From the NCBI RefSeq assembly GCF_003710805.1, contig NZ_RHHB01000011.1, forward strand, positions 1 through 64,000: a DNA stretch of 64,000 nt. Reading direction: 5' to 3'. Shown here piece by piece: positions 1-27,077 of this stretch (the stretch's first letter is position 1; every line of letters begins with the position of its first letter). Origin of the DNA: Agromyces tardus (GTDB lineage: Bacteria > Actinomycetota > Actinomycetes > Actinomycetales > Microbacteriaceae). Under the pieces are notes generated by a model, which searched no databases, was not told the origin of the DNA, and saw only the letters and a list, made by a program, of their open reading frames with translations. A program made the translations under genes and the position numbers.

Positions 1-297
1 CACGCGCCCGCCCACGGCGAGCGCCGCCAGCCGCCCGCCCCGGCTCGCGCCGGCAGGCTGGCGCACCCCGGCGACGCGCCGGGGGACGCGATCCGGCACG
101 GCGGCGTACACGCCGAAGCCGCCCTGCTCCTCCGCCGGGGCGATGAGCAGGTACGGCGCCCAGCGCGGGCCGGCCTGCAGCATCCGCAGCAACGCGAACT
201 CGGCCCCGCCCGGGGCGCTCGTGTGATCGAGGTGGAGGACGCGCACCACGTGGCCGGTCCGTTGCGCGAGCTCGTCGGGCGACGACCCGTGGCTCAC
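1..297 (-). CDS. Glycosyltransferase, N-terminal part (runs off the window)
   Basis: Reading leftward from a GTG at 297, 99 codons stay open to the window edge. The first 50 residues contain a RVLHLDHTSAPGGAEFALLR stretch, the typical beta-strand/loop/helix start of GT4 (GT-B fold) glycosyltransferases, whose glycine-rich loop binds acceptor substrate. The GTG overlaps the stop of the upstream tyrosine phosphatase gene as GTGA, so the two are probably translated together. The catalytic C-terminal domain is outside the window, so donor and acceptor cannot be guessed. The family call rests on the N-terminus and on the glycosyltransferase-rich neighbourhood. Confidence 0.7.
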   Translation of the reverse strand, partial: MSHGSSPDELAQRTGHVVRVLHLDHTSAPGGAEFALLRMLQAGPRWAPYLLIAPAEEQGGFGVYAAVPDRVPRRVAGVRQPAGASRGGRLAALAVGGRV

Positions 298-989
298 GCC
301 TGGCGCCGTCCTCGCCGGCGCTCGGTGCCGTCGCCGGATTCGGACGGAGCGCCGTCGAAGGGGCGGCCCGCAGCATCCTCGACCGCCTCGTCGTATGCGA
401 CGATCTCGGCGGGCGGCATGCCGAAGAGCACCGAGGCGAGGCGGGCGAGGGCGGGGACCTCTTCACTCGCCATCGCCCGGTAGGCCTCGTCGCCCTTGCC
501 CTGCGGGTCGACGATGTCGGTCGGGGTTCCGTTCGCGAGCGCGCGGTTGGCGCCGATCTCGGCGATGCGGGCCCGCAGCTCGGCGACGGAGGCCGGCGGC
601 GGCGACTCGGGCAGCGCGGCGGCGATCGCCCCCGCCTCGCGGATCGTGAAGGTGTTGCGGAGCGCGCCGGGCACGAACCCGAGCACCTTGTCGCGCTGCA
701 CGGCCTCGGCGACGAGCACGAGGTCGGCCGAGCGGATGACGCCCTCGGTGATCTGAGCGGCACGGTGACCGGATGCCTCCGCGCCGAGCGCCTCGGCGAT
801 GGCGCGGGTACGACGACGCATTGGGTTGCCGACGGGCGCGGCCAGCCCGGCGCTCGTCACGTTCAGCTGCGAGGCGAGGGGCTCGGGCAGGTACCACCCG
901 GCCCACGTGCGCAGCAGCGCGGCCCCGAGAGCGGAGCGGTTGAGGTTGCCCGTGCAGACGACGAGCACGGTGAAGGAATCCTGCTGCAT
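294..989 (-). CDS. Low-molecular-weight protein tyrosine phosphatase
   Basis: This 231-aa cytosolic protein carries the P-loop VCTGNLNRSA near its N-terminus, with catalytic Cys12 and Arg18, and a general-acid DP motif at Asp161-Pro162. The second P-loop cysteine common in the family is Asn here. It is longer than the usual 150-190 aa because of a basic C-terminal tail (RRRGRRQA). Such phosphatases dephosphorylate bacterial tyrosine kinases that control polysaccharide chain length, and a BY-kinase lies at 13227-14732. The ATG at 989 is preceded by a GGGGGTGG ribosome-binding site. It is divergent from the glycosyltransferase operon starting at 1065 and overlaps the next gene by 4 bases. Confidence 0.87.
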   Translation of the reverse strand: MQQDSFTVLVVCTGNLNRSALGAALLRTWAGWYLPEPLASQLNVTSAGLAAPVGNPMRRRTRAIAEALGAEASGHRAAQITEGVIRSADLVLVAEAVQRDKVLGFVPGALRNTFTIREAGAIAAALPESPPPASVAELRARIAEIGANRALANGTPTDIVDPQGKGDEAYRAMASEEVPALARLASVLFGMPPAEIVAYDEAVEDAAGRPFDGAPSESGDGTERRRGRRQA

Positions 990-9044: not shown

Positions 9045-9629
9045 CTACGCCTGGTAGAACGGCGGGTCGCACGTGGGTGCGCCCTGCGGGAACGGCGTCT
9101 TGCTCGAGCACGGCGGGAACGAGTCGATCACGATGCCGGGGATGACGATCGGCGCGTGGTCGGTGTCGTTGCAGTCGTGACCCCACGGGATCGTCAGCTG
9201 GAGCGTGACGCTCTGGTTGGCGCTGTTGTCGGAGTTCGCGTACACGATCACCTTGACGCAGTCACCCGGCGCGATAGCCGTGCAGTAGTCGGGGTTGATG
9301 CCCACGACGTTGAACGGCAGGCCCGACGACGAGATGCTGATCGACGGCTTGAGGACGATGTCCTTGTTCGTGTTGTTGCAGATGAGCAGCGGAATCGCGA
9401 ACGCCTTGTTCGGGTCGAGTCCGGGAAGGCCGGCGAAGAGCTCGGCACAACCCTGGGCGCTGTTGCCGGGAAGCTTACAAGCCTCGCCGACGGAGACGTC
9501 CGGCGGGTTGCCGGACGCGGCGTAGGCGGGAGCGGGAACGGCGATGGCGATGGCGGGGACAGACCACGCCATGGCCTTCGCGACCGTGCGCCGTGAGACG
9601 CCGGCCTTCGGTTCTTCGAGGTCGCTCAT
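9045..9629 (-). CDS. Tat-type exported protein with eight cysteines
   Basis: A 194-aa protein with a twin-arginine pair (Arg13-Arg14 in SRRTVAKAMAW), a hydrophobic stretch to about residue 36, and an AYA-A cleavage site, so the mature part of roughly 157 residues is predicted to leave the cell. The mature region is beta-rich, has eight cysteines (probably four disulfides) and no transmembrane anchor, LPXTG motif or lipobox. I do not recognise a family. It has its own upstream region, an AGGAGG ribosome-binding site 7 bases before the ATG, and a hairpin after the stop. Being inside a glycopolymer locus suggests a surface role, but that is inference. Confidence 0.75.
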   Translation of the reverse strand: MSDLEEPKAGVSRRTVAKAMAWSVPAIAIAVPAPAYAASGNPPDVSVGEACKLPGNSAQGCAELFAGLPGLDPNKAFAIPLLICNNTNKDIVLKPSISISSSGLPFNVVGINPDYCTAIAPGDCVKVIVYANSDNSANQSVTLQLTIPWGHDCNDTDHAPIVIPGIVIDSFPPCSSKTPFPQGAPTCDPPFYQA

Positions 9630-13226: not shown

Positions 13227-14732
13227 TCAGCCGCGGCGGCCGCGCTGACCCGAGGGCGCCCGGGGCACGAGCTCTGCTTCCTTCGCCGGGTTCTCGACCT
13301 GACCGGCCTCGGGCGTCTCGGTCGCGGGCGTCACCTCGGTGGCGGGCGAGGTGTAGTCGCGCCGGTATTCGTAGGAGTACGTCGCGGCGTCGGCGCCGCG
13401 GATGGGCACCTTGTTCAGGACGATGCCGAGGGCACGGCCGCGGGCCTTGCGCAGCGTGTCGAGGGCCTTGTCGAGCAGGTCGTACGTGGTCTTGCCGAGC
13501 GTGACCACGACGAGTGCGCCGTCGGCCTGGTGTGCGAGCACGGCGCCGTCGGTGACGGGCAGCAGCGGGGGCGCGTCGATGATCACGGTCGCGTACTTGG
13601 TGAGGTCGGAGAGCAGCGAGTGCATGCGCTCGGAGCCCAGCACCTCGCTCGGGTTCGGCGGGACGCTGCCCGCCGCGAGCACGAGGAGGTTGCTCGACTT
13701 CGGCGTGCGCTGAAGCACCTCCGCGAGGGCGGCACGGCCCGCCAGCACGTCGCTCAGCCCGGCACCGCCCGGCAGGCCCATGATGCTCGCGACCATCGAT
13801 CGCCGCAGGTCGCCGTCGACGAGCACGACGGTGGTGCCCGCGGCCGCGAGCGTGAGCGCCAGGTTGCAGGCGATCGTGGACTTGCCGTCGCCCGGGAGCG
13901 GGCTCGTCACCACGATGGTCTTGGGCGGGTGGTCCACGTCCATGAACTGGAGGTTCGTGCGCAGCGAGCGCAGCGCCTCCGAGACCGCGAACGTGCCGTT
14001 CTTGCCGGTGCTGTTCGACGCGGAGGCATCGATGAGCCGGTGCTCGGGATCGAGGCTCGGCACCAGGGGGATCGTGCCCACGACGGCGACGCCCGTCTTC
14101 TGCTCGGCGTCGTCGCCGTTGCGGATGCGGCGGTCGGAGGCGGTGCGGATCATCGCGAAGGCCACGCCGAAGCCGAAGCCGAGCACGCCGCCGACGATGA
14201 GCGCGGTCTGCACGTCGGGGAAGGCGGGGCTCGTGGGCACGGAGGCCGACTCGCGCGAGATGATCGTCACGGGGGCGTTGCCGTCGGCGCTGCCGTCGGC
14301 CTCGATGTCGTCGATGACCGTCTTCATGGAACGGAGCCACGCCTCCGACAGGTCCTTCGCCCCCTGCGCGGTGTTCGCTTCGGCGGAGACGCTGAGGATC
14401 ACCGTGCCCGGGGGGTTGGTCACCTCGACGCGCTGGATCAGCTGCTCGGGGGTGGTCTCGAGTCCGAGATCGTCGATGACGCCCTGCGCGACGTCGGTCC
14501 AACCCGCGATGACGAGGTAGGACTGGACCCGCGATCGGGCGAGGCTGTCGCCGAGCGACTGGGTCCCGACATCCCCCTGGCCGGTGGACTGGACGAGCCC
14601 GCTCGCACTCGCGACGTACACCGGCGTCTGGAGCATCGTCCAGCCGTAGCCTGCGGCCGCGCCGAGCATCGTCATCAGCAGAATTGCGATCCAATGGCGC
14701 CGCAAGCCGCGGAGGTAGTCGCGCAGTTCCAT
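13227..14732 (-). CDS. Wzz/BY-kinase fusion, chain-length regulator
   Basis: A 501-aa membrane protein with a Wzz-type N-terminal part: transmembrane helices at about residues 14-34 and 174-195 enclose an extracytoplasmic domain. The cytosolic kinase follows, with Walker A SPLPGDGKST (277-286), Walker A' VVLVDGDLRR (302-311) and Walker B TVIIDAPP (382-389). A tyrosine cluster at residues 452, 454, 456 and 460 is the expected autophosphorylation tail. Such one-piece tyrosine autokinases control polymer length through cycles of oligomerisation and dephosphorylation; the phosphatase at 294-989 is the likely partner. The tail after the cluster is acidic and proline-rich and may be disordered. Confidence 0.91.
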   Translation of the reverse strand: MELRDYLRGLRRHWIAILLMTMLGAAAGYGWTMLQTPVYVASASGLVQSTGQGDVGTQSLGDSLARSRVQSYLVIAGWTDVAQGVIDDLGLETTPEQLIQRVEVTNPPGTVILSVSAEANTAQGAKDLSEAWLRSMKTVIDDIEADGSADGNAPVTIISRESASVPTSPAFPDVQTALIVGGVLGFGFGVAFAMIRTASDRRIRNGDDAEQKTGVAVVGTIPLVPSLDPEHRLIDASASNSTGKNGTFAVSEALRSLRTNLQFMDVDHPPKTIVVTSPLPGDGKSTIACNLALTLAAAGTTVVLVDGDLRRSMVASIMGLPGGAGLSDVLAGRAALAEVLQRTPKSSNLLVLAAGSVPPNPSEVLGSERMHSLLSDLTKYATVIIDAPPLLPVTDGAVLAHQADGALVVVTLGKTTYDLLDKALDTLRKARGRALGIVLNKVPIRGADAATYSYEYRRDYTSPATEVTPATETPEAGQVENPAKEAELVPRAPSGQRGRRG

Positions 14733-14799: not shown

Positions 14800-15951
14800 A
14801 TGACAACCGCCTTCGACGTGCGCACCCTCGGCTCGGTCGTCCGTGTCGAGCTCCATGACTCGGTCGACGAGACCGACCGTGAACGCATCCGGGATCAATG
14901 GGTCGACCTCATCGAAGACGGGGTCGAACCCGACGTCACGATCAGGGGCACGCTCGACCGCTCGTCGCTGCTGGACGACGCGAACCCGGCCGTCTCCGCC
15001 GCGTCTCCCGAGCACCTTGCGGCCACCATCGCCACGGAGGTGACCCTGGCCGGCATCGCGGGCCTCTCCGGTGCAGCGCTCATGCTCCACGCCGGCGGTG
15101 TCGCGCTCGACGACGGCCGCGTCATCGCACTGGTCGGCCCGTCCGGCCGGGGCAAGACCACGGCGACGCAGGCGCTCGCGACCACGCTGGGCTACGTCAC
15201 CGACGAAACGCTCGCGGTCTACCCCGACGGCACGGTCGTGCCCTACCGCAAGCCCCTCTCGATCGGCAAGCACCCCGAGACGAAGACCCCGGTCGCGGCG
15301 TCGCAGCGCGGCCTCCGCGACCTCCCCGACGCCGAGCTGCGGCTCGACGCGATCGTCGTCCTCGATCGCCGCGAAAACGTCGAGACTCCGTACGTCGAGC
15401 TGCTCCCCCTTCGCGACGGCCTGAACGAGATCGTGCCGCAGACCAGCTTCCTCTCGGCGCTCTCCAAGCCGCTGCGCACGCTCGTGACGACCATCCTCGC
15501 CACCGGCGGGGTGCGGCGCGTCGTCTACTCCGAGGCCGACACGCTGGCGGCGCTCGTCGACGACATGCTCTCGGCTGGGTCCATCGAGTCGCCGCAGCTG
15601 GTCGACGTGGGCGTCTCGGTGGGCGACTGCGGATGCGAGGCCAAGCTGAACCCGCTCGGCGCGGGCGAGACCACCACGGAGTCCGACTCGACACCGCTCT
15701 ACCAGCGGAAGGACTACCGCGACGCGCTCAGCGTCGACGATTCCCTGGTGATCCTGAGCCACAACCGGGTCACGGTGCTCGACGGCCTCGGTCCCGTGCT
15801 CTGGTTCGCCGCCGAGGACGTCACCGAGGCGGAGCTGGTCGAGGCCGCGCTCCGCGAGATGCCGGCGCCGCCCGAGCACGTCGATCCTGCTCAGGTGGTC
15901 GCCGCGACCGTGGGCGAGCTCATCGAGGGCGGACTGCTCGTACGCGTCTGA
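14800..15951 (+). CDS. HPr-kinase-like protein with PqqD-like C-terminal domain
   Basis: A 383-aa cytosolic protein. LMLHAGGVAL and the P-loop GPSGRGKT (residues 113-120) followed by YVTDETLAV match the HPr kinase/phosphorylase fold used by HprK-related kinases. Residues about 298-383 form a PqqD-like winged-helix domain: VTVLDGLGPVLWFAAED aligns with IAILDGIAGLIWIEACEG of the stand-alone PqqD-like protein at 23262-23528. A DCGC motif lies between the domains. HprK-related kinases, PqqD-like proteins and nucleotidyltransferases recur together in exopolysaccharide/exosortase or peptide-export loci; the phosphate acceptor is not known. It is divergent from the BY-kinase across 67 bp. Confidence 0.8.
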   Translation: MTTAFDVRTLGSVVRVELHDSVDETDRERIRDQWVDLIEDGVEPDVTIRGTLDRSSLLDDANPAVSAASPEHLAATIATEVTLAGIAGLSGAALMLHAGGVALDDGRVIALVGPSGRGKTTATQALATTLGYVTDETLAVYPDGTVVPYRKPLSIGKHPETKTPVAASQRGLRDLPDAELRLDAIVVLDRRENVETPYVELLPLRDGLNEIVPQTSFLSALSKPLRTLVTTILATGGVRRVVYSEADTLAALVDDMLSAGSIESPQLVDVGVSVGDCGCEAKLNPLGAGETTTESDSTPLYQRKDYRDALSVDDSLVILSHNRVTVLDGLGPVLWFAAEDVTEAELVEAALREMPAPPEHVDPAQVVAATVGELIEGGLLVRV

Positions 15952-16024
15952 TCCCGCTGACGCACGCCCGTTCGTCCAGTCGGGCGCGGCCCTCGTGGAA
16001 CCCGCGCGACCGTGACGGCGGCGC

Positions 16025-17395
16025 TCAGCGCATCGCGCCCGACGGGAGGCGCGACGACGCCTGCGCGGACGGACCGATCCCCTCGTCCGCCGAGCGTTCC
16101 TCGCGCGCCATGGCCCCCAGGCAGATCCCGGCGATGACGAACGGGATCGACACCTGCGCGGCGACCCAGAAGAGGTCGAACTGGGCCTGCACGAGGCGGC
16201 AGAACACCACGGCGACGGCGAGCGTGCCGAAACGGGGGTCGATGTGCCAGAGCACCAGCAGGATGCCGATCCACATCACCACGAACGCCGCGAGCCCCAC
16301 GACCCCGGCGCTCGCGAGCACCTCCAGCTCACCCTGCGGCGGCTGGTAGCCCAGGTTGCCCGGTTGGTACCAGTACCTGAGACCGTGGCCGAAGATGGGC
16401 GCCTCACGCCAGAAGTGGTAGACCTCGCGGAACCAGTCGAGTCGCTGGAACACCGAGTTGTGCTGGTTCTGCGACTGCACCTGCTCGACGACCATCGAGA
16501 TGATGAGCCATCCGGCGGGGATGAGCAGGAGCAGGAGCAGGAGTCGGGAACGGCCGGAGTGGGTGCGTCGGATCACGGCGATGACGACGGCCGCCATGAG
16601 GCCGATGAGCGCCTGACGGGACTGGGAGACGAGCACGCCGGCGATGAGCAGCCAGAAGGCGAAGCGCGACCACGCGCGGGTCCAGCCCACCCAGTCGGGA
16701 TTCAGGTAGGCCACGATCGCCGCGAACGCGAAGACCGTTCCCACGAAGTTCTTGTGCATCGAGATCGGCCACGACGGCGCAGCCGGCCCGAAGTTGCCGG
16801 ACGCGTACTGCAGGGCCGCCTGGCCCAGGGTCAGCACGGCGAGCGCGCACGCGGTGAACACGATCAACGACAACGCCAGCCGGCCGTATCCGGCAGCGCC
16901 GACAGCCCAGCCGACGATGAGCGCGCCCGACACCAGCAGCCACGCGTGCACCCACTCCACCGTGTTCGCGACGTAGGGGTTCACGAGCACCGTGAAGAAC
17001 GTCGCGAACTGGTAGACGAGGTTGAGCATCAGGAGGCTGCGCAGGGGCCGGCTGTAGGGGCGCTGGCCGAGCAGCAGTGCCGTGCCGAACGCGGCGGCGA
17101 GCGCGGCATCCGACACCGACAGGTCGCCACCGCCGATGCCGATCCGCTGGGGGATGAGCAGGCCGGGCATGGCGAACAGCACGATCGCGAGGGGCTTCGA
17201 GCTCGTCAGCGCCGCCGCTACGACGAACGCGGCGATCACGAGCGCCATCATCGGGCCGTTCTGCGCGCCGCGGTCGAGGAGCAGGTAGATCACGGTGACC
17301 GCGCCGAACGCCAAGAGGACCCAGCGCCACGTGCCGGCCCACCAATCGACGATCCTGGGATGCCGGATCGCCCAGCGCTCGCTCGTCGAACTCAT
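16025..17395 (-). CDS. O-antigen polymerase/ligase family membrane protein (Wzy-like)
   Basis: A 456-aa polytopic protein with about ten to twelve hydrophobic segments. It has the O-antigen ligase/polymerase core: a long loop with FQRLDWFREVYHFWREAPIF followed by HGLRYWYQPGN and a downstream membrane segment. It would polymerise lipid-linked repeat units at the outer face of the membrane. The ATG at 17395 is chosen over a longer open frame because AAGGAC lies 6 bases upstream and the extra N-terminus has no coding character. The C-terminal tail is cytosolic and charged. It is divergent from the GT2 gene at 17475. Confidence 0.86.
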   Translation of the reverse strand: MSSTSERWAIRHPRIVDWWAGTWRWVLLAFGAVTVIYLLLDRGAQNGPMMALVIAAFVVAAALTSSKPLAIVLFAMPGLLIPQRIGIGGGDLSVSDAALAAAFGTALLLGQRPYSRPLRSLLMLNLVYQFATFFTVLVNPYVANTVEWVHAWLLVSGALIVGWAVGAAGYGRLALSLIVFTACALAVLTLGQAALQYASGNFGPAAPSWPISMHKNFVGTVFAFAAIVAYLNPDWVGWTRAWSRFAFWLLIAGVLVSQSRQALIGLMAAVVIAVIRRTHSGRSRLLLLLLLIPAGWLIISMVVEQVQSQNQHNSVFQRLDWFREVYHFWREAPIFGHGLRYWYQPGNLGYQPPQGELEVLASAGVVGLAAFVVMWIGILLVLWHIDPRFGTLAVAVVFCRLVQAQFDLFWVAAQVSIPFVIAGICLGAMAREERSADEGIGPSAQASSRLPSGAMR

Positions 17396-17474
17396 GCCCG
17401 GTCCTTCAGTGAGATTCGCTCCAGTATCGCAGGTGCGGGCGGGCGGGCGTACCGGCACCGAACCCGACGCTACG

Positions 17475-18491
17475 ATGACTGGCGTGCCAGAGGATCGAGG
17501 GTCGAGTGCCGGCCGCGCCACGTTCGCCCTCGTCATCCCGACCCACCAGCGTCCGGATCTGGTCGTGCAGGCAGTCGAGAGCGCGCTGCGCCAGAGTCGC
17601 CCGTTCGACCAGGTGATCGTCGTGCCCGACGGTCTCGACGACCCGTCGGTCGCCGCCCTCGCGGGGTACCCGGTCGAGGTGGTCGCGATCGAGAAGGCGG
17701 GCGTGGCTGCGGCACGGAACGCCGGCACCGCGCACGCCCGCACGGACTGGGTGTGCTTCCTCGACGACGACGATCTACTGCATCCCGAGTACCTTGCCCG
17801 CATCGAGGCCGAGACGGCGACGGGTGCGCAGGCGATGAACACCGGGTACTGGAGCTTCGCCGCCGAGGCCGGTCCCGCCGACGAGTTCTCGGCCGGCACG
17901 CTCGACGAGTGCCTCGAAGCCGTCCGCACCGCTCGACCGAGGAAGGACCTCGGCTACCTGCAGATCGAGGGCCGGAGCTTCGACCTGCTGCTCGAGCGGA
18001 TGCGCGGGTCGATGAGCACCACGGCCGTGCGTCGCGATGTCCTGACCCGCGCCGGCGGATTCCCGACCGGGGTGGTCACCGGTCAGGACTGGGTCATGTA
18101 CGTGAATGTCGCGCGACTCACGGAATGGCACCTGGTGCCGGATCGACTGGGTTTCTTCCGTGACCACCCCAGCACGATCACGCGCACGGGATCGCCGCTC
18201 AAGGGCCTCACCGCGCTGCGCGTCATCCGCTCGTTCTGGCGACCGAGCGAGCTCCCGACGCCCGCCCATCGCCCGCTCGACGCCTACCGGCCCTACTACC
18301 GCCACGTGCTCGGGTGGGCGCTCCGGGCATGCTGGCGTGCGCGGGACGTCCGCGCCTACCGCGAGGCGCTCGCCATCTCACGTGAGATCCTGCCTCGCCG
18401 GAGCGACCGCCTGTCTGCCATGGCGCCCCGGTGGGTCCATCGGGCATCCGCGGCGATGCGACGGCGCATGCCGAGGCGTCAGCGAGCCTGA
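17475..18491 (+). CDS. GT2 glycosyltransferase
   Basis: A 338-aa GT-A enzyme with FALVIPTHQRPDLVVQAVES at its start, AARNAGTAHARTDWVCFLDD with a DDDD acidic run as the metal-binding DxD region, and a GQDWVMYVNVA segment corresponding to the catalytic-base region. The C-terminal 80 residues are basic and probably contact the membrane. The ATG at 17475 follows a TACGAT -10-like element closely, so a downstream GTG at 17484 is an alternative. Its 3' end overlaps the convergent GT2 gene by 13 bp. Confidence 0.84.
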   Translation: MTGVPEDRGSSAGRATFALVIPTHQRPDLVVQAVESALRQSRPFDQVIVVPDGLDDPSVAALAGYPVEVVAIEKAGVAAARNAGTAHARTDWVCFLDDDDLLHPEYLARIEAETATGAQAMNTGYWSFAAEAGPADEFSAGTLDECLEAVRTARPRKDLGYLQIEGRSFDLLLERMRGSMSTTAVRRDVLTRAGGFPTGVVTGQDWVMYVNVARLTEWHLVPDRLGFFRDHPSTITRTGSPLKGLTALRVIRSFWRPSELPTPAHRPLDAYRPYYRHVLGWALRACWRARDVRAYREALAISREILPRRSDRLSAMAPRWVHRASAAMRRRMPRRQRA

Positions 18492-19435
18492 GGACGCAGC
18501 CGGGTCCCGGCACGTGACGCCACGGTCCGCGCGAACCCCCGCACGAAGCCCCACGGCGCGATCCGGACCGAGTCGCGCAGGTCGCGGCCGGCAGCACCGA
18601 ACCGTCGCGCCCGCAGATCTCCGAGGATCCGCCCCGTCGAGTTCCCGGCGGTGGATCGGCGCATGCGCCGCAGGTTGCGACGCAGCAGCACGACCTGATC
18701 GTTCCGGCCGGCCGCTGCGGCTGCCGCGATGTTCTGCTTCACCGCACGCTCCGCCGAGCGGTATCGAATCCGCCAGTCGGCGTGCGTCGCGTTGTCACCG
18801 TGGCGCCGGTAGTCGACCACGACGGCCGCCGCGCTCACGAGGGGCGCGTGCCGCAGGAGACGGAGGATGAGTTCGTCGTCCTCCGAGAACGACAGCTCCT
18901 CGTCGAACAGTCCGGCCCGATCGAGGGCGGAACGTCGCACGAGCAGGGCCGTGATGCGCGGGATCGGCGTGGTGCCCCGGAGGAAGTCCGCCTGCGTTGC
19001 GCCGGCGGTGTTCCACCTGCCGAAGACCCGACCCTCGGCGTCGATGTACTGTCCGTTCCCGAACGATCCGGCAGCGTCGGGGTGCCGCTGGAGGGTCTCG
19101 ACGAGTGCGCGCAGACGATCGGACGGCCAGCGGTCGTCGTCGTCGAGGAATGTGATGAATTCGCTCGTCCCCGAGCGGATGGCCGTGTTCCTCGCCGCGG
19201 ACACGCCTCGGGCGGGTTGATGGATCACCACGGCCGAGGGTATCCCCGCGACGAGCCGCTCGAGCTCCGCCGGAGCAGTCGAACCGTCATCGACGAGCAC
19301 CAGTCGCCAGCTCGGGTAATCCTGGCGCATCGCCGACTCGAGCGCCTCCGGAAGGAACGGGCTCACCCGATTCGTGGGTACCACGATGTCCACCGTGCCG
19401 GCCCCGACGGTGCTGCCGCGCGGGTCCGGACTCAC
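18479..19435 (-). CDS. GT2 glycosyltransferase
   Basis: A 318-aa GT2 enzyme: VDIVVPTNRVSPFLPEALES, WRLVLVDDGS, ARGVSAARNTAIRSG, FITFLDDDDRW (DxD region) and FSEDDELILRLLRHA (catalytic-base region). The GTG start overlaps the stop of the next upstream gene as GTGA, which settles the start within a much longer open frame. It is the last gene of a three-gene minus-strand operon (21257 to 18479) of glycosyltransferases. The C-terminal 80 residues are arginine-rich. It resembles the convergent GT2 at 17475 in domain order but is not a close copy. Confidence 0.86.
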   Translation of the reverse strand: MSPDPRGSTVGAGTVDIVVPTNRVSPFLPEALESAMRQDYPSWRLVLVDDGSTAPAELERLVAGIPSAVVIHQPARGVSAARNTAIRSGTSEFITFLDDDDRWPSDRLRALVETLQRHPDAAGSFGNGQYIDAEGRVFGRWNTAGATQADFLRGTTPIPRITALLVRRSALDRAGLFDEELSFSEDDELILRLLRHAPLVSAAAVVVDYRRHGDNATHADWRIRYRSAERAVKQNIAAAAAAGRNDQVVLLRRNLRRMRRSTAGNSTGRILGDLRARRFGAAGRDLRDSVRIAPWGFVRGFARTVASRAGTRLRPQAR

Positions 19436-20283
19436 GGCTGCCGACCCGCAAGTCGGGGGAGTGCGACCACGCGGAAGCGTCCGAACGGGTCCCGCGCGAA
19501 GGGGGCGCCCGCCGCGGTCATCCACGGATGCCGCGAGCGCCGGCGCCAGCGCGCCAGGTCGCGGTCCCAGTCGCGCTTGCCCATGTAGCCGGAGACGATC
19601 CGCTTCTCGGCCATCTGCGCCTCGCTCCGCACCCAGCTCAGGTGCAGGATCGCGTCGGCCGGGCGGATCACCGCATGCACCCGGGCGTCGTACGGGTGCG
19701 CCGGATCCGTGTTCCTCGGGGCGACATCGACTCGGTAGGCATGGGGTGATGCCGGCTGACGCGCCGCTGCGAGCGTCGTGCCCGCTCGAACCGCAACAGG
19801 CCCGGGGTAGGCGGCCTGCGCCGTCCAGAATCGCCCGCAATGCTCGAGGAACCGGCCGCTCGCCGTGCGGGCGTAGATGTCGCGAAGCGGGTAGTCGAGG
19901 GCGTCCGCGGCACGCCGCTCCGCGATGGCCAGATGCCGGAGCAACGTCGCGCCGGATGCAACGACCTCGTCGGTGTCGAGCTGCACCACCCAGTCGGCGC
20001 CCTCCGACGCCGCGTCCAGAGCGGCTTGGCGCTGCTCCGTCTCCCCGCGCACGACCGGTCGTTCGGGGTCCGCATACTCCCCGGGCGCCAGGACCGTCTT
20101 CCCGTCGGGATCCGCAGCCCGGATCCGCCGGAGCGACTCCTCGACGGAGAGCGGGTGGCCGGCCCAGGATCGATGGTGCCGGTCGAACGAGACCACGATG
20201 CGGTCGACCATGCCGTAGTACGACGCGATGCTCTCGCCCGCCCACGCCGGGTCGCCCGCCAGCACATACGCGTGCACCCTCAT
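19432..20283 (-). CDS. Glycosyltransferase (GT2/GT92-like)
   Basis: A 283-aa protein whose N-terminus (MRVHAYVLAGDPAWAGESIA) is that of glycosyltransferases which model a single donor at the surface of a GT-A fold. VVSFDRHHRSW follows, and VVQLDTDEVV contains the DxD metal site. LDYPLRDIYART and LHLSWVRSEAQMAEK match the GT92-like/DUF707-type group of small surface-polymer enzymes. The ATG overlaps the upstream stop as ATGA and its own stop overlaps the next GTG, so it is the middle of a coupled trio. The assignment to a glycosyltransferase is firm, the subfamily less so. Confidence 0.77.
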   Translation of the reverse strand: MRVHAYVLAGDPAWAGESIASYYGMVDRIVVSFDRHHRSWAGHPLSVEESLRRIRAADPDGKTVLAPGEYADPERPVVRGETEQRQAALDAASEGADWVVQLDTDEVVASGATLLRHLAIAERRAADALDYPLRDIYARTASGRFLEHCGRFWTAQAAYPGPVAVRAGTTLAAARQPASPHAYRVDVAPRNTDPAHPYDARVHAVIRPADAILHLSWVRSEAQMAEKRIVSGYMGKRDWDRDLARWRRRSRHPWMTAAGAPFARDPFGRFRVVALPRLAGRQP

Positions 20284-21257
20284 CGCAGGATGGGCCCCTT
20301 CGTGCGACGGAGCCGCGATGCCGCTCCCACACTCGCGATGACGCCGGAGGCCGTGCCGACGAGGTCGATGCTCGCCCGGCGGACGCCACCGACGGCTCCG
20401 CGTGCCTTCGATCGCAGCCCCTGTCGCTTCGGATCGCGAACGGATCGCAACCCCCTGACCACGTCGCGACCGGCGCGCGTGACCATGCCGCCGAGATAGC
20501 GGCGAAGATGCGGATCGTCGAACCCGAGCGTCGTCGCGAGCAGCACCACGTGATTGCGCGCGCCGTAATAGCGGTATCTCGTGTCGAAGCGGCGTCCGCG
20601 TGCATAGGTGCCCGCCACATGACGGACCACGGCAGTCGGGGTGTACACGATCTTCATGCCGGCCCGACGCATCCGGAGGGCGATGTCCGTCTCCTCGCGG
20701 AGGCAGGTGCCGGGATAGAAGTCGCGGATGCCGCCGAGTTCCCGAACAGCGCTCATACGGACCGACATGTTGGCGCCGAGGAGATGGTCGACCTCCACAT
20801 CCCGGCCCGGGTCGGCCGCGAAGTACCCGGTGAGACGGCCGTCGGGCAGGAGCAGTCCGATCTCGCCGATCCCCTCGCGCTCCTCCCCCGGCCGGTCGTT
20901 GAGGGCTCGCCCGCCGACAGCCGCGACGCGCTCGTCCGCGTACGGCAGGAGCAGCCGCTCGAGCCACCGCGGCTCGGCGTACGCGTCATCGTCGATGAAC
21001 GCGACGACGTCTTCGTGGACGTCGGAGACGCCGATCCCGCGCGACGTCGCGGTCGTTCCGATGCCCCGGTCGTTGCGTCGGTATTCGACCCCCGGGAAGG
21101 CCGCCACCACCTCCCGAGTCTGGTCGTCCGGCGAGGCGTCCACGACGATGACGCGCACCGGCGCGACCGTCTGACGCGCGAGGTGCTCGAGGCATTCGCG
21201 CACGTGGTCGGGGCGGCGGTACGTGGCGATCACGACACTCGCAGTCGGCTGCGTCAT
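20280..21257 (-). CDS. GT2 glycosyltransferase (rhamnosyltransferase-like)
   Basis: A 325-aa GT-A enzyme with SVVIATYRRPDHVRECLEHL, RVIVVDASPDD, VAFIDDDAYAEPRWLE (DxD), a LLGANMSVRMSAVRELGG segment and LREETDIALRMRRAG with the catalytic ED pair. These are typical of rhamnosyl- and galactosyl-transferases of the GT2 family. It is first in the three-gene coupled operon, with its stop overlapping the next ATG. The last 60 residues are very basic, as expected for a membrane-surface enzyme. The ABC exporter gene ends 88 bp upstream on the same strand. Confidence 0.86.
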   Translation of the reverse strand: MTQPTASVVIATYRRPDHVRECLEHLARQTVAPVRVIVVDASPDDQTREVVAAFPGVEYRRNDRGIGTTATSRGIGVSDVHEDVVAFIDDDAYAEPRWLERLLLPYADERVAAVGGRALNDRPGEEREGIGEIGLLLPDGRLTGYFAADPGRDVEVDHLLGANMSVRMSAVRELGGIRDFYPGTCLREETDIALRMRRAGMKIVYTPTAVVRHVAGTYARGRRFDTRYRYYGARNHVVLLATTLGFDDPHLRRYLGGMVTRAGRDVVRGLRSVRDPKRQGLRSKARGAVGGVRRASIDLVGTASGVIASVGAASRLRRTKGPILR

Positions 21258-21345
21258 CGCTCCCCCTCTCGTGCGGATGCGCCGTTCGACTCCATTGCCC
21301 AGCCTCCCAAAGTTCCGGATCCGGTGTCCCGATCGGTCACGGCGA

Positions 21346-23157
21346 TCAGTTGAGCTCGCCGAGTTCGACCAGCCGGGCGAACTCCGCGTTCTGCGCCCGC
21401 ACCTCCTCGAACGTGCCCTGCGCGTCGATCTGCCCCTCGGAGAGGAAGATGAGCCTGTCGGCGTGCCGGACCGTGGAGAGCCGGTGGGCCACGATCAGGA
21501 TCGTCAGGCTGCCCTGCAGCCCGGCGAGCGTCGATGCGATCTCGTGCTCGGTCAGGTTGTCGAGGGCTGAGGTGGCCTCGTCGAGCACGAGCACGCTCGG
21601 CCGGCGGTACAGCGCTCGTGCCAGGCCGATCCGCTGGCGCTGACCGCCGGAGAGCCGGACGCCGCGTTCGCCGACCACGGTGTCGAGTCCCTGGGGAAGG
21701 TCGGCGACCAGCGCGTCGAGCTGCGCCATCGTGATGACCTCGCGCACCCGCGCACGATCGACCCCGTCGGCCGGGACGCCGAACGCGATGTTCGCGGTCA
21801 ACGTGTCGTTGAGCAGGAACACGTCCTGCGGAACGACGCCGAGTTCGCCGTACCACGCCGCCAGGTCGTCCTGGATCGCCCGTCCGCCGACCTCGACGGC
21901 GCCGTCGGTCGGGGTGAGCAGGCCGAGGACGAGGTCGAGGAGGGTGCTCTTGCCGGCGCCGCTCGATCCCACGAAGGCGATCGTCGTGTTGTGCGGGATC
22001 CTCAGCGAGACATTCCGCAGCACCAGCTGCTCGGAGTCGGCGTACCGGAAGCTCACGTCGCGCAGTTCGATGTCGCCCTCGAAACGCACGAGGCTGCGTG
22101 GCCGCTCCTCGTGGATGCCGCCCGCGTCCAGTTCGTCGATCGCATCGGAGACGATGTCGAGTCCTGCTCGGCCGGTGCGGATCGTGGCGAGGCTCCCCGA
22201 GATGCGGTTGAGCGTCGGCAGGGCCCGGAGGGATGCCGCCGCGAACACGCCGAGCACCGTGATGGCCTCCGACGGCGACACCGTCGTGAAGAGGATCGCC
22301 GAGATGCCGAGGATCGCGAAGACGAACCCGATCTCGAGCAGGTACCGGGGCGCATCCGCCAGGATTCCCATCTCACGGGAGGCCCGTGCCCGACGGAGCC
22401 GCGCGTCGCGGAACCCGTCGATGAAGGCATTCGAGCTGCCCGTGAGCCTCGCTTCCCGGAATCCGTCGAGTCCGGGGAGGAGGAACTGCCAGGCCGCGAG
22501 GCCCGTGGCCGCGATCTCCTCGCCGATGCGGTACTGCCGTCGGCGCAGGCCCATCTGCACGCCGAAGACGAGGAGGGAGAACAGCGCCACCGCGAAGATC
22601 GTCACCGTGGGCGACGCGATCGCGAGCACGATGCTGATGGCGATGAGGACCAGGGCGTCGGAGGCGATGCTGACGAGACCGAGCAGCACGCTCGACGACT
22701 GGTTCGTGGCGTCGTTGATGTTGCGGTAGATCTCGCTCATCCGCCTGGCCCGATGATCGGCGTACGGCGCGAGTGCGTACCGCCGCGCGAGCTCCGCCGA
22801 CGAGAGCGCCGAGACTCGCGTGGTGCGGCCCAGCAGCCACCACCGGAACGCGAGCGCGCCGAGGCTCTTGACGATGAACACGAGCGCGACGAAGGCCGCC
22901 ACCACGGGGATCAGGACGGATCGATCGGTCGTGCCGACCACGTCGGAGACCCAGGCGAGCACCCCGCTGTCGGTGTTGCCGCCGGTCGCCAGCTGCGTGA
23001 GCGGTACCATCGCTGCGACGCCGAGCGTGTCGAGTGCCGCGAGCACCACGGATGCCGCGACGGTGCCGGCGATCCATCGCTTCGGGTCGACGTGGGCCAT
23101 CCGCAGCATGAGCCGCAACTGAGGGATCAGGCGCCTGCCATCCCCAGCTCGTGCCAT
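21346..23157 (-). CDS. ABC exporter (fused permease-ATPase, PglK/MsbA-like)
   Basis: A 603-aa half-transporter: six predicted membrane helices in residues about 20-330, then a nucleotide-binding domain with Walker A GSSGAGKST, signature RLSGGQRQRIGLARAL, Walker B VLVLDEATSALD and switch HRLSTVRHADR. It would work as a homodimer exporting a lipid-linked glycan or a peptide. The ATG at 23157 has GGAGGA 6 bases upstream, so the longer open frame is discarded. It follows the nucleotidyltransferase-PqqD gene pair on the same strand by 104 bp. No MATE-type flippase is in view, so it is the best candidate for polymer-unit export; the PqqD neighbour also leaves peptide export open. Confidence 0.88.
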   Translation of the reverse strand: MARAGDGRRLIPQLRLMLRMAHVDPKRWIAGTVAASVVLAALDTLGVAAMVPLTQLATGGNTDSGVLAWVSDVVGTTDRSVLIPVVAAFVALVFIVKSLGALAFRWWLLGRTTRVSALSSAELARRYALAPYADHRARRMSEIYRNINDATNQSSSVLLGLVSIASDALVLIAISIVLAIASPTVTIFAVALFSLLVFGVQMGLRRRQYRIGEEIAATGLAAWQFLLPGLDGFREARLTGSSNAFIDGFRDARLRRARASREMGILADAPRYLLEIGFVFAILGISAILFTTVSPSEAITVLGVFAAASLRALPTLNRISGSLATIRTGRAGLDIVSDAIDELDAGGIHEERPRSLVRFEGDIELRDVSFRYADSEQLVLRNVSLRIPHNTTIAFVGSSGAGKSTLLDLVLGLLTPTDGAVEVGGRAIQDDLAAWYGELGVVPQDVFLLNDTLTANIAFGVPADGVDRARVREVITMAQLDALVADLPQGLDTVVGERGVRLSGGQRQRIGLARALYRRPSVLVLDEATSALDNLTEHEIASTLAGLQGSLTILIVAHRLSTVRHADRLIFLSEGQIDAQGTFEEVRAQNAEFARLVELGELN

Positions 23158-23261
23158 CGTGGTCCTCCACCCAGTCCGCCCGGTGCCTCGAGTGGGCGGG
23201 CCTCCCGGAATCATAACTGCGGGACGGGGAGCGCCGACGCCGAGGCGGCAGGGCGGTGGCG

Positions 23262-23528
23262 TCAGCCCTCGCCGGCGACGAGCAGCCGCCGCCGCACGAG
23301 GTCGTCGACGAACGACTCGACGTGGGCGCGGATCGACTGCGGCTCCGCACCGGTCGCGGTCGCGATGCGCTCCACGAGCGTGCCGGCCGGGCCTTCGCAG
23401 GCTTCGATCCAGATCAGCCCCGCGATGCCGTCGAGGATCGCGATGGGCCCGTCGGGAAGGATCGCCGCATACAGCACGTCCTCGTGCTCGAGGACGCCGA
23501 CCCACTCCCCCGGCCGATACCCACCCAT
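23262..23528 (-). CDS. PqqD-like winged-helix protein
   Basis: An 88-aa protein with the PqqD/RRE-type layout: a small beta start (YRPGEWVGVLEHEDVLYAAI), AILDGIAGLIWIEACEG, then a helical part ending VESFVDDLVRRRLLVAGEG. PqqD-like domains bind leader peptides in RiPP pathways, but the same fold is found in HPr-kinase-linked exopolysaccharide loci with unknown partners. The ATG shares one base with the upstream stop (TGATG), so it is co-translated with the nucleotidyltransferase. It resembles the C-terminal domain of the HPr-kinase-like protein at 14800-15951. No precursor peptide gene was recognised nearby. Confidence 0.77.
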   Translation of the reverse strand: MGGYRPGEWVGVLEHEDVLYAAILPDGPIAILDGIAGLIWIEACEGPAGTLVERIATATGAEPQSIRAHVESFVDDLVRRRLLVAGEG

Positions 23529-24409
23529 CAGCGCACCACTCTCCGGGGGCCCACCCGCCGGATCGCCGAGCGAACCGCCTCGACGACCGCGAAGACGGGT
23601 CGGCGCAGGAACTCGACCACGATGTCGCCGCGCGTCGGCGTGCGCCCGAGACGATGCGCGAGGTGATCGACGTTCACGAGCGGGGCGCGCATCACGATGC
23701 GGAGCGCGGCCCGTGTGTCCGGCGCGGCGCGAATACGCGCCCACCACTCCGCCGCGCGCGAACCGCCCCCGGAGACGACCTTCCAGAGCCGGTACTCCCG
23801 ATCGTTCCGGTATCGCTCCAATCCGCCCGCGGCGGCTGCGAAGGCCACGTCGGCGTGGAGCCGGCCGACCAGCTGGAGCATCTCGTCCCGTCGAGCGTCG
23901 TCGGCGTCGTGCCACACGGTCACGACGTCGACGCGGGCGCCTTTCGCCGAGCGTGCCGCGTTGAGCACGAGCAGCACCGCCTGTGCGGTGACGCTCGGGA
24001 CGTCGCATCCGACCCCCGCGATCTCGATGCGGTGCCGATCGGCCCAGAACACGTCGAACGCGCCGTCGGGATCGAGCCGGATTCCCGGGAAGTACCGGTG
24101 GATGTCGATGTAGCCCCATGCCGGGTGCAGGTACGTCTGCGCGTGGCCGAACGGCGATCCGTGCTCGAACGTGCTGTAGAGCTGCCAGCCGTGCGCGCGG
24201 AGCGCGCGGTCGAGCACGACGACACCCGACGGTCGCACCAGCACGTCGACATCGCTTCCCGAGTAGGCGCCGGGGCGGAGCGACGGATCGACCGACGCGC
24301 CCTTGATGTGCAGGAGGTCGACGCCGACCTGGTCGGCCACGCGCTGCACCGCCGCGTGCCCGAATCGCAGGCGCACCGGAAGCGGCACGCTCACCTGGGA
24401 TTCGTCCAC
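23528..24409 (-). CDS. Nucleotidyltransferase family protein
   Basis: A 293-aa protein with an HIKGASV motif and a GSDVDVLV site near the N-terminus, as in the NTP_transf_5-like nucleotidyltransferases that accompany PqqD and HprK-like proteins in surface-polymer loci. The first acidic pair and Asp of SDVD would bind metal. QTYLHPAWGYIDIHRYFPG and the long helical C-terminus fit the same family. The start is uncertain: the frame is open to a GTG at 24436, but a TACAGT -10-like hexamer overlaps that codon, while the GTG at 24409 has GGGGGAAG about 6 bases upstream and is preferred. The substrate is unknown. Confidence 0.77.
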   Translation of the reverse strand: MDESQVSVPLPVRLRFGHAAVQRVADQVGVDLLHIKGASVDPSLRPGAYSGSDVDVLVRPSGVVVLDRALRAHGWQLYSTFEHGSPFGHAQTYLHPAWGYIDIHRYFPGIRLDPDGAFDVFWADRHRIEIAGVGCDVPSVTAQAVLLVLNAARSAKGARVDVVTVWHDADDARRDEMLQLVGRLHADVAFAAAAGGLERYRNDREYRLWKVVSGGGSRAAEWWARIRAAPDTRAALRIVMRAPLVNVDHLAHRLGRTPTRGDIVVEFLRRPVFAVVEAVRSAIRRVGPRRVVR

Positions 24410-24472: not shown

Positions 24473-25627
24473 TCAGAGGTTCGCCGTGAGGTACGCCAGG
24501 GCCCGCGAGCGCTCGGCATCCAGCACCCGGTTCACCGAGGCCCAATCCGGAGCGAAGACCCGCTCATCGACGGCGGTGGAGGACGCCGAGGTGAGGTGGT
24601 GCTCGAGCCCGAAGATCCCGAGGAGCGTGTCGAAGCGGCTCGCGCCACGGCTCGCGTTGGCGTAGACGACGAACGGGCGGTTGAAGAGGATCGAGAACAC
24701 GCAGCCGTGGAAGGAGTCGGTCGCGACGAAGTCCGCCGACGCGAAGCACGCGAGCCACTGCTCGATCGACGGCAGGTCGTAGGCGGACCGGTTCTGCGCG
24801 TACTCGCGATACGACGGCGACGGCCCACCCGTCGGAAGCAGTTCGAGCGACGGCACCCCCAGGCGCTCGGCGAGCTCGCGCTCGGTTCGTTCGAGGTGGT
24901 CGTTCGCGTCGAGTCGGTAGACGAGGAGGCGCCCGGTGGCGGGGGCCGGCGCAACCCCGGCGCGCGCGGCGAGCTGCCGGTAGTGATCGGCCGGCAGCAG
25001 CATCGTGGGGTCGACATGCTGCTCGGCATGGACGCCGAACTCGTCGCGGCAGATGCGCACTCCCGCGGCCTCCCGGACCGAGACGGCGTCGAACTTCCGG
25101 ATGAGTTCGGCGACCCGCGCCCGGTCGCCGTCACGGTACTCCGCGATGTCGTCGACGCCGAACGATGCGGCGAACGACATCCGACGAGGCCGGTCTCCGT
25201 CGAGGTCGTCGACCACGTCGAGGAACTGCGCCGGGAGATCCGCATAGGACGCTCGCCACACCTGGTCGCTGCCGACCACGAACGTGCGGAACCGACGCGC
25301 CAGCAGGGCCCTGCCGCGGCGAGTGTACGCGCGCTCGACGAACGACCCACCCGTGATGTGCCGTGCGATGAAGGCGCGCTGGGACGCGGTCGCCTCCCGC
25401 GCAGAGCGCCAGCGCCAGTCGAACCGAGCCGGCAGCGACATCCGGATGCCCCTGCGGACGTCCCACAGGCGCCGCCGCAGCCGCCGCTGGAGGGGGAGCG
25501 GCTTCGAGGTGTCCGTCACCGGCAGGCAACCTAGGTCGCGCACGACCCGCTGCAGGGCGTACGCCTGCAGGATGCCGCCGTAGTTCGAGTGGAGCGGCAG
25601 CGTCTTGATCAGTACCCGGCGTGACAC
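24473..25627 (-). CDS. Polysaccharide pyruvyl-transferase family protein (EpsI/WcaK-like)
   Basis: A 384-aa protein with HSNYGGILQAYALQRVV at the start, FVVGSDQVWRASYAD, FAASFGVDDIAEY and FVATDSFHGCVFSILFNRPF near the C-terminus. These are the hallmark segments of the pyruvyl-transferase superfamily found in exopolysaccharide loci. It would add pyruvate to a sugar of the polymer or of its lipid-linked precursor. It is divergent from the FrhB-like gene at 25680 across 52 bp; the two families are very often adjacent in surface-polymer loci, which suggests joint action. Confidence 0.88.
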   Translation of the reverse strand: MSRRVLIKTLPLHSNYGGILQAYALQRVVRDLGCLPVTDTSKPLPLQRRLRRRLWDVRRGIRMSLPARFDWRWRSAREATASQRAFIARHITGGSFVERAYTRRGRALLARRFRTFVVGSDQVWRASYADLPAQFLDVVDDLDGDRPRRMSFAASFGVDDIAEYRDGDRARVAELIRKFDAVSVREAAGVRICRDEFGVHAEQHVDPTMLLPADHYRQLAARAGVAPAPATGRLLVYRLDANDHLERTERELAERLGVPSLELLPTGGPSPSYREYAQNRSAYDLPSIEQWLACFASADFVATDSFHGCVFSILFNRPFVVYANASRGASRFDTLLGIFGLEHHLTSASSTAVDERVFAPDWASVNRVLDAERSRALAYLTANL

Positions 25628-25679
25628 GGGATGACGCTATCAGGGGTGTGGACCGCCCGGAGATGCGACGGAGGACGGC

Positions 25680-27077
25680 ATGACGCACGGAATCGAGCAG
25701 GTCGTGCAACGCGGGATGTGCGTCGGCTGCGGCGCGTGCGCGGTCCGCACCTCGGGGGCCATTCCGGTGACCATCGGGCGCTTCGGCGTCTACGAGGCTC
25801 GCCTCGACGGCGTCGATCCGGCGGTCGTGCGCGACGCCAGCCGGGTCTGCCCCTTCTCCGACGACGCACGCAACGAGGACGACCTCGCACGGGAACTGTT
25901 CCCGGGCCTGCCGACCGACGACCGGATCGGCGCCCACCTCGATGTCTTCGCCGGACGGCGGACATCGGAGAACGAGCTCGTCGCCAGCAGTTCCGGCGGG
26001 CTGACGTCCCTCATGCTGACCGAACTGCTCCGCGGGGGCGTCGTGGACGGCGTGCTCCATGTCGGACGTTCGGCGTCGGGAGACCAGCTCTTCACGTACG
26101 AGATCTCCACGACGAGCGAGGACGTCGAACGGTCGCGGAAGTCGATGTACTCGGCCACGACGCTGGCCGACGTCGTCGCCGAGATCCGGGGTGACGGAAG
26201 GACGTACGCGGTCGTCGGCCTGCCGTGCTTCATCAAGGCGCTCCGGCTCCTCGCCCACGAGATGCCCGGACTGGGCGAGCAGCTGCGCGTGTACGTCGGC
26301 CTGGTGTGCGGCCACCTGAAGAGCTCCTTCTTCGCCGAGTCGCTCGCGTGGCAGGCAGGCGTGCCGCCGCACGAACTCGGGCGCATCGACTTCCGGGTGA
26401 AGAACCCGGAACGCTCGTCGGGCGATTACGACTACGAGGTCGCAGCACGCGATGGAGCCGAGCCGCGCGTTCGACGCACGAGTTCGACCATCGACGGCCC
26501 GTGGGAGTACGGCGCGTTCCAGCCCGAGGCCTGCAACTTCTGCGACGACGTCTTCGCCGAGAGCGCCGACGTGGTGTTCGCGGACGCGTGGTTGCCGCAG
26601 TACAAGGCCGACTGGCGCGGCATGAACGCGGTGGTCGTGCGAGACGAGCGCCTGCGTGAACTGTTGCTCGCGGCCCGACGACGCGGTGAGATCCACCTCG
26701 AGGCGCTCTCGGTCGATGAAGCGGCCCGTTCCCAGGCCGGTGGCCTCCGTCACCGGCGCACGGGGCTGGCAGTGCGACTCGCCGACGACATGCGGCGGGG
26801 TCTCAGCGTGCCGACGAAGCGCGTGGCCCCCGACCTGCGCGTCGTGACGAGGCGACGCGCCGCGGTCATCCGGCAGCGTCGCAGGATGTCGCAGCTCTCC
26901 CTCGAGACGTTCGCGATCGCGAGGCAAGCGGGAGACTTCGAGCTCTATGCGGCGCCGATGCGGCGCGCCATCCAGCGGTACCGGCTGTTCGAGGCGGCAT
27001 CGCTCGGACTGCGCCCGTTCGCGCGTGCGCTGCGTCGGCGGATCCTTCCCGCCCGGCGCCGGCCGGCGGACCAGTGA
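25680..27077 (+). CDS. FrhB-like (coenzyme F420 hydrogenase beta-type) iron-sulfur protein
   Basis: A 465-aa protein with an N-terminal ferredoxin-like cluster motif, MCVGCGAC (Cys14, Cys17, Cys20) plus Cys57-Pro, followed by the FrhB domain: SSSGGLTSLMLTELL, VVGLPCFIKALRLL, YVGLVCGHLKSSFFAESLAW and EACNFCDDVFAESADVVFAD, which add conserved cysteines for a second cluster. In polymer loci this family is paired with pyruvyl-transferase-like proteins and may reduce a sugar or a pyruvyl/acyl group with flavin; the reaction is not established. F420 use is known for archaeal and actinobacterial relatives but cannot be inferred from motifs alone. The gene marks the right end of the glycopolymer locus. 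Confidence 0.83.
   Translation: MTHGIEQVVQRGMCVGCGACAVRTSGAIPVTIGRFGVYEARLDGVDPAVVRDASRVCPFSDDARNEDDLARELFPGLPTDDRIGAHLDVFAGRRTSENELVASSSGGLTSLMLTELLRGGVVDGVLHVGRSASGDQLFTYEISTTSEDVERSRKSMYSATTLADVVAEIRGDGRTYAVVGLPCFIKALRLLAHEMPGLGEQLRVYVGLVCGHLKSSFFAESLAWQAGVPPHELGRIDFRVKNPERSSGDYDYEVAARDGAEPRVRRTSSTIDGPWEYGAFQPEACNFCDDVFAESADVVFADAWLPQYKADWRGMNAVVVRDERLRELLLAARRRGEIHLEALSVDEAARSQAGGLRHRRTGLAVRLADDMRRGLSVPTKRVAPDLRVVTRRRAAVIRQRRRMSQLSLETFAIARQAGDFELYAAPMRRAIQRYRLFEAASLGLRPFARALRRRILPARRRPADQ

Follow-up and report, generated by a model that had tools for sequence, protein, structure and literature searches.

The 64,000-nucleotide stretch of Agromyces tardus DNA analysed here (contig NZ_RHHB01000011.1 of assembly GCF_003710805.1, positions 1 to 64,000; hereafter the window) encodes an HprK-like kinase with a C-terminal PqqD-like domain (14800-15951, + strand, 383 aa), a free PqqD-like protein (23262-23528, - strand, 88 aa) and a nucleotidyltransferase of the NTP_transf_5 kind (23528-24409, - strand; the start is 24409 or 24436). 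We propose that these proteins form a system for the modification of secreted proteins, guided by RiPP recognition elements (RREs), and that its substrate in this organism is encoded 5 kb from the kinase (9045-9629, - strand, 194 aa). We put the probability of this reading at roughly 0.7. The gene set, the signal motif of the substrates, the register of that motif and the co-occurrence of signal and enzymes were computed directly, and from these we infer the chemistry, the twin-arginine translocation (Tat) route and the link to a polymer. The enzymes are of known kind; the target class appears to be new, the phylum is a different one and the targets are scattered.

The predicted substrate starts with a twin-arginine signal (9519-9593, - strand, from RR to AYA), which has the RR, the moderately hydrophobic stretch and the AxA of Tat substrates, and export by this route is predicted. 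Within it, W-x-x-P-x-I stands at -16, -13 and -11 of the predicted cut after AYA, with the putative RRE-binding motif W-S-V-P at 9555-9566 (- strand), and a serine follows at +2 (Ser39, 9513-9515, - strand), which is the predicted phospho-acceptor. The pattern RR..[WY]xxP..AxA had three matches in the six frames of the 64 kb, one within a called gene (9519-9593) and two antisense to called genes. The protein was also the one match to the signal profile described below in the window's genome (E <= 0.01; 107 of 107 candidates scored), and its mature part had no Pfam match. A preliminary description of this DNA had reported that no precursor was present. This is correct for positions 14800-24409, outside which the protein is encoded, but not for the locus at large, where 9045-9629 is a likely precursor gene.

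Secreted proteins with this unusual twin-arginine signal, approximately SRRTVxxGAAWSxPxIA...PxAAAS, are repeatedly encoded near the family's 14 kinases, which come from 12 genomes including that of the window. For the motif analysis, 129 matches to a profile ending at W+6 gave 120 distinct rows with R[R/K]...W, of which one was dropped (E 0.25); the remaining 119 signals come from 68 stretches. Proline is found at W+3 in all 119, W+5 is isoleucine, valine or leucine in 95% and W+12 is proline in 98%; arginines occupy -9 and -8 of the tryptophan in 97 and 99%, where R[R/K] was required for the choice of rows. Position W+17 is serine in 93% and threonine in none, and all eight others have a serine within two residues of this position. 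The serine is kept in 90 of the 96 signals from stretches outside the profile-building set, and generic signal peptides, found with a simple pattern in the same stretches, have serine at +2 in 7 of 61. The mature parts, of 87-513 residues, are mostly unrelated, forming 79 clusters at E 1e-5 with 60 singletons. In a Pfam comparison of nine of them, RCC1 propellers were recognized in two (in one together with Ig-like repeats) and sub-threshold matches to TIG and a glycine-rich domain in two more; the other five had no match. A single genome (G073; L039 and L136-L144) encodes 42 proteins with the Tat-type WxxP signal (Tat-WxxP proteins), many of them clustered on one contig.

Signal and kinase occur together far beyond the neighbourhood of the kinase gene. 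The signal profile (40 residues, from 19 proteins found beside kinases) was searched independently of the kinase. Among 24 chosen genomes, it matched in all 12 with the kinase, in 1, 1, 1, 2, 3, 3, 6, 10, 15, 19, 27 and 42 copies (E <= 0.01), and the 12 genomes without the kinase gave two marginal matches (7e-4 and 0.007). Across 150 genomes of the family, a search with the single kinase protein matched 70, of which 12 (including the window's) at E < 1e-30, and a profile search at E <= 1e-8 returned the same 12; a contig scan with a P-loop pattern, which was too general, gave at least eight loci. All 12 kinase genomes have the signal, two genomes have only the signal, none only the kinase and 136 neither (Fisher p 5e-16). 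The corresponding numbers for 297 genomes of the order are 53 with both, 7 with kinase only, 5 with signal only and 232 with neither (p 8e-45), or, counted by genus, 21, 3, 0 and 70 (p 4e-18). The window's genus is represented there by the window's genome, which has both, and six others, which have neither. In 296 genomes of the class, a sample that has genomes in common with that of the order, the signal accompanies 13 of 13 kinases at E < 1e-60. The sampled family and order genomes together hold 348 signal matches at E <= 1e-4. The nucleotidyltransferase of the window's clade (E < 1e-60) is found with the kinase in the same 12 of the 150 family genomes, and the nucleotidyltransferases of six further genomes are all distant (E 1e-21 to 1e-31). 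The proposal of the preliminary description that these families belong together is therefore borne out.

An export signal that would be bound by an RRE-type domain could also point to a Tat proofreading chaperone, the RRE and kinase delaying export while the kinase acts elsewhere or only uses ATP. Binding of this type would have such an effect, and the co-occurrence agrees with it. We consider this explanation unlikely, as it predicts neither a conserved serine, never threonine, after the signal nor the presence of the nucleotidyltransferase in the same 12 of 150 genomes.

The kinase, the free PqqD-like protein and the nucleotidyltransferase are all genes called by a codon-usage gene finder, and profiles and predicted folds confirm the assignments made in the preliminary description. 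The kinase matches the NCBIfam family HprK-related kinase A weakly (21.5 bits, cut-off 200), and its NCBIfam and Pfam matches are only weak and mostly to the P-loop. Its predicted structure (mean pLDDT 87.2) has the PEPCK/HprK fold, with PEPCK as a relative (Z 14.8, root-mean-square deviation 4.3, 246 residues aligned) and the HPr kinase of M. pneumoniae (1knx) at rank 41 in Foldseek (E 1e-4). By its modelled fold and its P-loop, it belongs to the HprK/PEPCK-fold kinases. Invariant in 14 kinase homologues are H97 before the P-loop, the P-loop G-x-G-K and D-E-T at 135-137. The last ~90 residues (15652-15948, + strand) form a PqqD-like winged helix according to our own PqqD profile (3e-10), and residues 300-382 of the model consist of strands and three helices; positions 278-370 of the kinase-family profile match LppB (9x8z), the RRE of the linear polyphosphorylated peptide (LPP) system, at E 0.0027. 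The resemblance of this tail to the free PqqD-like protein, noted earlier, is upheld (25% identity over 63 aa, E 1e-4). A longer kinase of 527 aa (L035, 9015-10598) has a C-terminal extension that, by eye, resembles a second PqqD-like domain. In Demequina activiva (L047, 9377-10831) and in L110, a low-molecular-weight protein-tyrosine phosphatase (LMWPTP) is fused to the kinase, with at least three consecutive Tat-WxxP proteins downstream.

The free PqqD-like protein exceeds the Pfam PqqD cut-off (26.7 bits against 23.4) and matched no NCBIfam family. A profile of 26 such proteins matches TbiB1 (1.7e-11), LppB (9.6e-10) and PbaB1 (2.9e-9), and the closest relatives of solved structure include the complexes 9x8z (E 9.6e-10) and 9x90 (2.9e-9). 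It is present in 27 of 56 kinase neighbourhoods, a set in which L047 and L108 are apparently the same contig and a few loci are of the second form described below or of the lasso kind; the genome-wide search for the free protein by itself covered the window's genome. The nucleotidyltransferase scores 26.6 bits against NTP_transf_5, under the cut-off of 31.2, which two relatives from other loci exceed. The DxD and third aspartate expected to bind metal do not vary across 21 homologues, and a Pol-beta-type nucleotidyltransferase fold is seen in the model (pLDDT 90.9). Its structural relatives include MenT1 (Z 15.6, 3.0 A, 171 residues aligned), ANT(2'') and, more remotely, the ribitol-phosphate transferase FKRP (Z 9.1); no solved relative was found by sequence up to E 1.

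This set of proteins resembles that of the LPPs, which, according to Popov et al. (2026; PMC13381572), are confined to Bacillota. There, the RRE LppB binds a leader through YxxP at -16, the published binding motif of LPP and paeninodin leaders being [Y/W]xxP at -16/-15, and the HprK-like kinase LppK adds one to four phosphates to core Ser3, but not to threonine or tyrosine (PMC13381572). RRE complexes have been solved for LppA (Y-16, P-13, V-11, Ser+3) and PbaA (W-15), and the leader is removed by a signal-peptidase-like enzyme aided by the RRE (PMC13381572). The register found here (W-16, P-13, I/V-11, and Ser+2 if the cut falls after AxA) equals those of LppA and PbaA. Both systems combine an HprK-like kinase, a discrete RRE and an NTP transferase, and both have [Y/W]xxP at about -16 of the leader cut (here a predicted cut) and a serine close behind it (here at predicted +2, in 93% of the 119 signals). 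They also share the setting in a capsule locus and a conserved N-terminus with a variable C-terminus, and leader removal by a signal-peptidase-like enzyme is predicted here as well. The systems also differ. The system described here is found in Actinomycetes, its signals are of the Tat type and bear RR, and an RRE is fused to the kinase; 'twin-arginine' and 'tat' are absent from the main text of PMC13381572. LPP clusters include a SipW-like peptidase and an MsbA-like exporter, whereas no exporter is conserved here, the MsbA-like transporter beside the nucleotidyltransferase and PqqD genes of the window not being a conserved part of the actinobacterial set. A Pfam scan of 22 window proteins showed no SipW-like signal peptidase. 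LPP precursors measure 35-200 aa and number one to three per cluster, which the window's precursor alone (194 aa, one copy) would fit; in the signal family as a whole, mature parts reach 87-513 residues and up to 42 copies are scattered per genome.

Based on these comparisons, we propose the following sequence of events. A PqqD/RRE domain, either the kinase tail or the free protein, would bind W-x-x-P-x-[I/V] in the Tat-type signal of the target. The HprK-like kinase, held in place by its own RRE, would then phosphorylate, and perhaps polyphosphorylate, the serine behind the cleavage site while the protein is still in the cytoplasm. The Tat route takes proteins that are already folded and modified. 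Aided by the free PqqD-like protein, the nucleotidyltransferase may subsequently place a second group on the phosphoserine, most likely a hexose, or else a nucleotidyl or sugar-phosphate group. The hexose is suggested by analogy with PsmN, which is reported to install one or two hexoses on the phosphoserine of pseudomycoidin, although nucleotidylation followed by hexose addition through a host enzyme is an alternative there (PMC9266682). After Tat export and cleavage by signal peptidase I, the modified N-terminus would lie at the cell surface and would probably be linked to the surface polysaccharide of the same locus. The preliminary description had suggested that the enzymes phosphorylate or nucleotidylate a carrier or a peptide. 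The direction of this suggestion agrees with our results; the target is instead likely to be the Tat-type secreted protein 5 kb away.

A second form of the kinase, found in the class sample, lends support to the placement of the motif. Nineteen further class genomes have a weaker kinase (E 3e-22 to 6e-12) and no match to the profile of the first-form signal; these kinases are without the tail and lie beside a separate PqqD gene. We sampled 17 stretches from 16 genomes, namely 15 of these 19 and G183 of the order (G510, G638, G646 and G654 were left out), and refound the kinase in 16 of the stretches (all but L191). A Tat-type WxxP protein was present near the kinase in 15 of the 16 loci, within two genes in 14 and four genes away in L183; L179, near a contig end, had none. 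Where RR is seen, it lies 10-14 residues from the tryptophan, compared with 7 in the first form, while the distance from the tryptophan to the cleavage site is about equal in both. The position of the tryptophan thus follows that of the cut and the serine and not that of the Tat motif, as expected if a bound RRE presents the serine to the kinase.

Several observations weigh against the proposed system. The tryptophan and RR were required for choosing the signal rows, and the 93% serine at W+17 is partly selected because the profile that first located the stretches includes the serine column. Of the 15 second-form loci, nine keep the serine at W+17, five have it only at +19 and L183 has threonine at +17. 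The cleavage site was placed by the AxA rule alone, and LppN, the counterpart of the nucleotidyltransferase, was inactive in the published heterologous system (PMC13381572). The signal profile was derived from proteins adjoining the kinase, and the large searches scored 6-15 candidates per genome for the enzymes, with 6-13 in the case of the kinase, and 25-50 for the signal. Of the 56 kinase stretches (up to 20 kb each), only 23 contain a signal protein. Signal proteins also occur in six to eight genomes that lack such a kinase, among them G085 (strong) and G062 (marginal, 8.8e-5) in the family and G160 and G658 in the class, and the serine is kept in the signal-only genomes G085, G222 and G249. 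Conversely, five order genomes of one family that have the kinase (G254, G268, G309, G335 and G390) have no signal protein at E 0.001 with all candidates scored, the best match being E 0.0025 in G254. The other kinase-only order genomes, G171 and G183, each carry a variant form of the signal protein at a distance of two genes from the kinase. Tat-WxxP signals without the kinase were seen in G085, G160, G222, G236, G249, G367 and G658, the last of which lay outside a recheck of seven signal-only genomes that, with up to 93 candidates scored, returned only P-loop noise. Such genomes may hold orphan targets, have lost the kinase recently or use another kinase.

The preliminary description had also placed the free PqqD-like protein and the nucleotidyltransferase directly upstream of an ATP-binding cassette (ABC) exporter (21346-23157, - strand), which NCBIfam and Pfam matches in our analysis show to be MsbA/PglK-like. 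This position is confirmed, with a transcription order of nucleotidyltransferase, free PqqD and exporter on the minus strand. The functional tie that it proposed is not supported, because full-length relatives of the exporter occur in only 3 of 69 neighbourhoods (the window, L123 and L124); partial matches (270 and 236 columns) were to exporter-sized proteins in L054 and L181. The exporter was therefore rejected as a core partner and is possibly a polymer flippase. Independence of the families, named earlier as grounds for refutation, was thus found for the exporter and not for kinase, nucleotidyltransferase and substrate. The same evidence bears on the alternative that the enzymes make a small phosphorylated peptide, LPP- or lasso-like, which the ABC transporter exports, the Tat proteins being mere neighbours. 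The order of nucleotidyltransferase, PqqD and ABC genes is indeed like that of LPP and lasso clusters, and L054 resembles a true lasso cluster. Between 23158 and 24472, however, where a search for small leader-bearing genes had been suggested, we found only open reading frames that overlap genes in other frames; of the seven listed, two have [W/Y]xxP, at a position like that expected by chance, and neither is leader-like. With the scarcity of the exporter and the genome-wide association of signal proteins with the kinase, this alternative appears highly improbable. The cluster in L054, from a Gemmatimonas metagenome-assembled genome (5645-13530), is what we take to be a phosphorylated lasso cluster. 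It comprises putative PqqD, peptidase-like, synthetase-like, kinase, nucleotidyltransferase-like and ABC exporter genes.

The enzymes of the window are surrounded by genes for glycosyltransferases, two pyruvyltransferases, a Wzz/BY-kinase fusion (13227-14732, - strand; NCBIfam and Pfam) and an O-antigen-ligase-like protein, and the locus therefore very likely makes a surface polysaccharide. An LMWPTP is encoded at 294-989 (- strand). At 24473-27077, a pyruvyltransferase gene (-) adjoins a divergent gene for an FrhB/FdhB-type protein (+). Of the 56 kinase loci, 28 have a Wzz/BY-kinase close by and 28 a tyrosine phosphatase, which in L047/L108 and L110 forms a single protein with the kinase. Kinase and signal could also merely be inherited together on surface-polysaccharide islands, with the kinase regulating polymer synthesis, as these neighbours and the fusion in L047 and L110 would allow. 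We regard this as very unlikely, given that the targets are scattered (42 in G073) and unlinked to the kinase in several genomes, that the motif register matches that of RRE leaders and that the kinase itself carries a fused RRE domain. In the single-copy genomes G000 (the window's), G060 and G096, the signal protein lies 2.6-5.2 kb from the kinase. In five genomes of family f18 (L111, L113, L116, L117 and L118), the kinase has no target within 20 kb and the targets are elsewhere, so that riding on a polysaccharide island is insufficient as an explanation. Further recurrent neighbours are proteins that we take, from their sequences, to be DoxX/MauE-like membrane proteins (11 of 51 loci), LepB-like signal peptidases (9 of 51) and LCP-like proteins (7 of 51); the LepB-like copies of L042 and L044 score as bacterial signal peptidase I. 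A TatA gene (Pfam) lies near the kinase in L038 (16760-17062), and genes that look TatC-like by eye adjoin it in L034 and L038.

Because Wzz/BY-kinase and tyrosine phosphatase so often accompany the kinase, we also guess from gene neighbourhood at a link between modified protein and polysaccharide. A tentative extension of the modification system, which we hold at rather less than even odds, is that it serves sorting and surface attachment, a glycosyl-phosphate on the N-terminal serine of folded proteins before export providing the covalent link to the polysaccharide. If so, it would be an N-terminal counterpart of sortase/exosortase anchoring for dozens of unrelated proteins per cell. In the PEP-CTERM/exosortase system, one processing machine encoded in a polysaccharide locus serves many scattered substrates with a common short signal. 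The present system differs in that the signal is N-terminal and that a kinase and RRE take the place of a transpeptidase.

Among other known systems, the phosphorylated lasso peptides paeninodin and pseudomycoidin share with it a serine-acting HprK-like kinase, a nucleotidyltransferase (PsmN in pseudomycoidin), a WxxP leader and an RRE (PMC9266682). Here, the serine is at the N-terminal side and the targets are protein-sized, and a Pfam scan of 22 window proteins showed neither a macrolactam cyclase nor a B2 peptidase. The NCBIfam HPr-rel-A system (TIGR04352/TIGR04353) likewise pairs an HprK-related kinase with a PqqD-related protein, but the scores fall far below its cut-offs (kinase 21.5 of 200 bits; PqqD of L042 18.1 of 35 bits). 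In the open-access papers searched, we found no report of such a target class, a dual export and recognition signal, scattered substrates or an occurrence in Actinomycetes, and no paper joining HprK, PqqD and nucleotidyltransferase, or HPr kinase, PqqD and exopolysaccharide. Judged by title, none tied twin-arginine signals to RREs or to PqqD and a kinase either.

Modification guided by RREs is familiar from small peptides. In the present case, the same recognition motif lies within the export signal of many unrelated secreted proteins, and a natural-product enzyme set therefore seems to have been turned into a general tagging system for surface proteins. If true, this would point to a role beyond lasso clusters for NTP_transf_5 proteins and for HprK-like proteins with a PqqD tail, and would assign a single target residue to each of some 350 secreted proteins in the sampled family and order genomes. 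It would also allow the reason for the location of paeninodins and LPPs in capsule loci to be tested directly.

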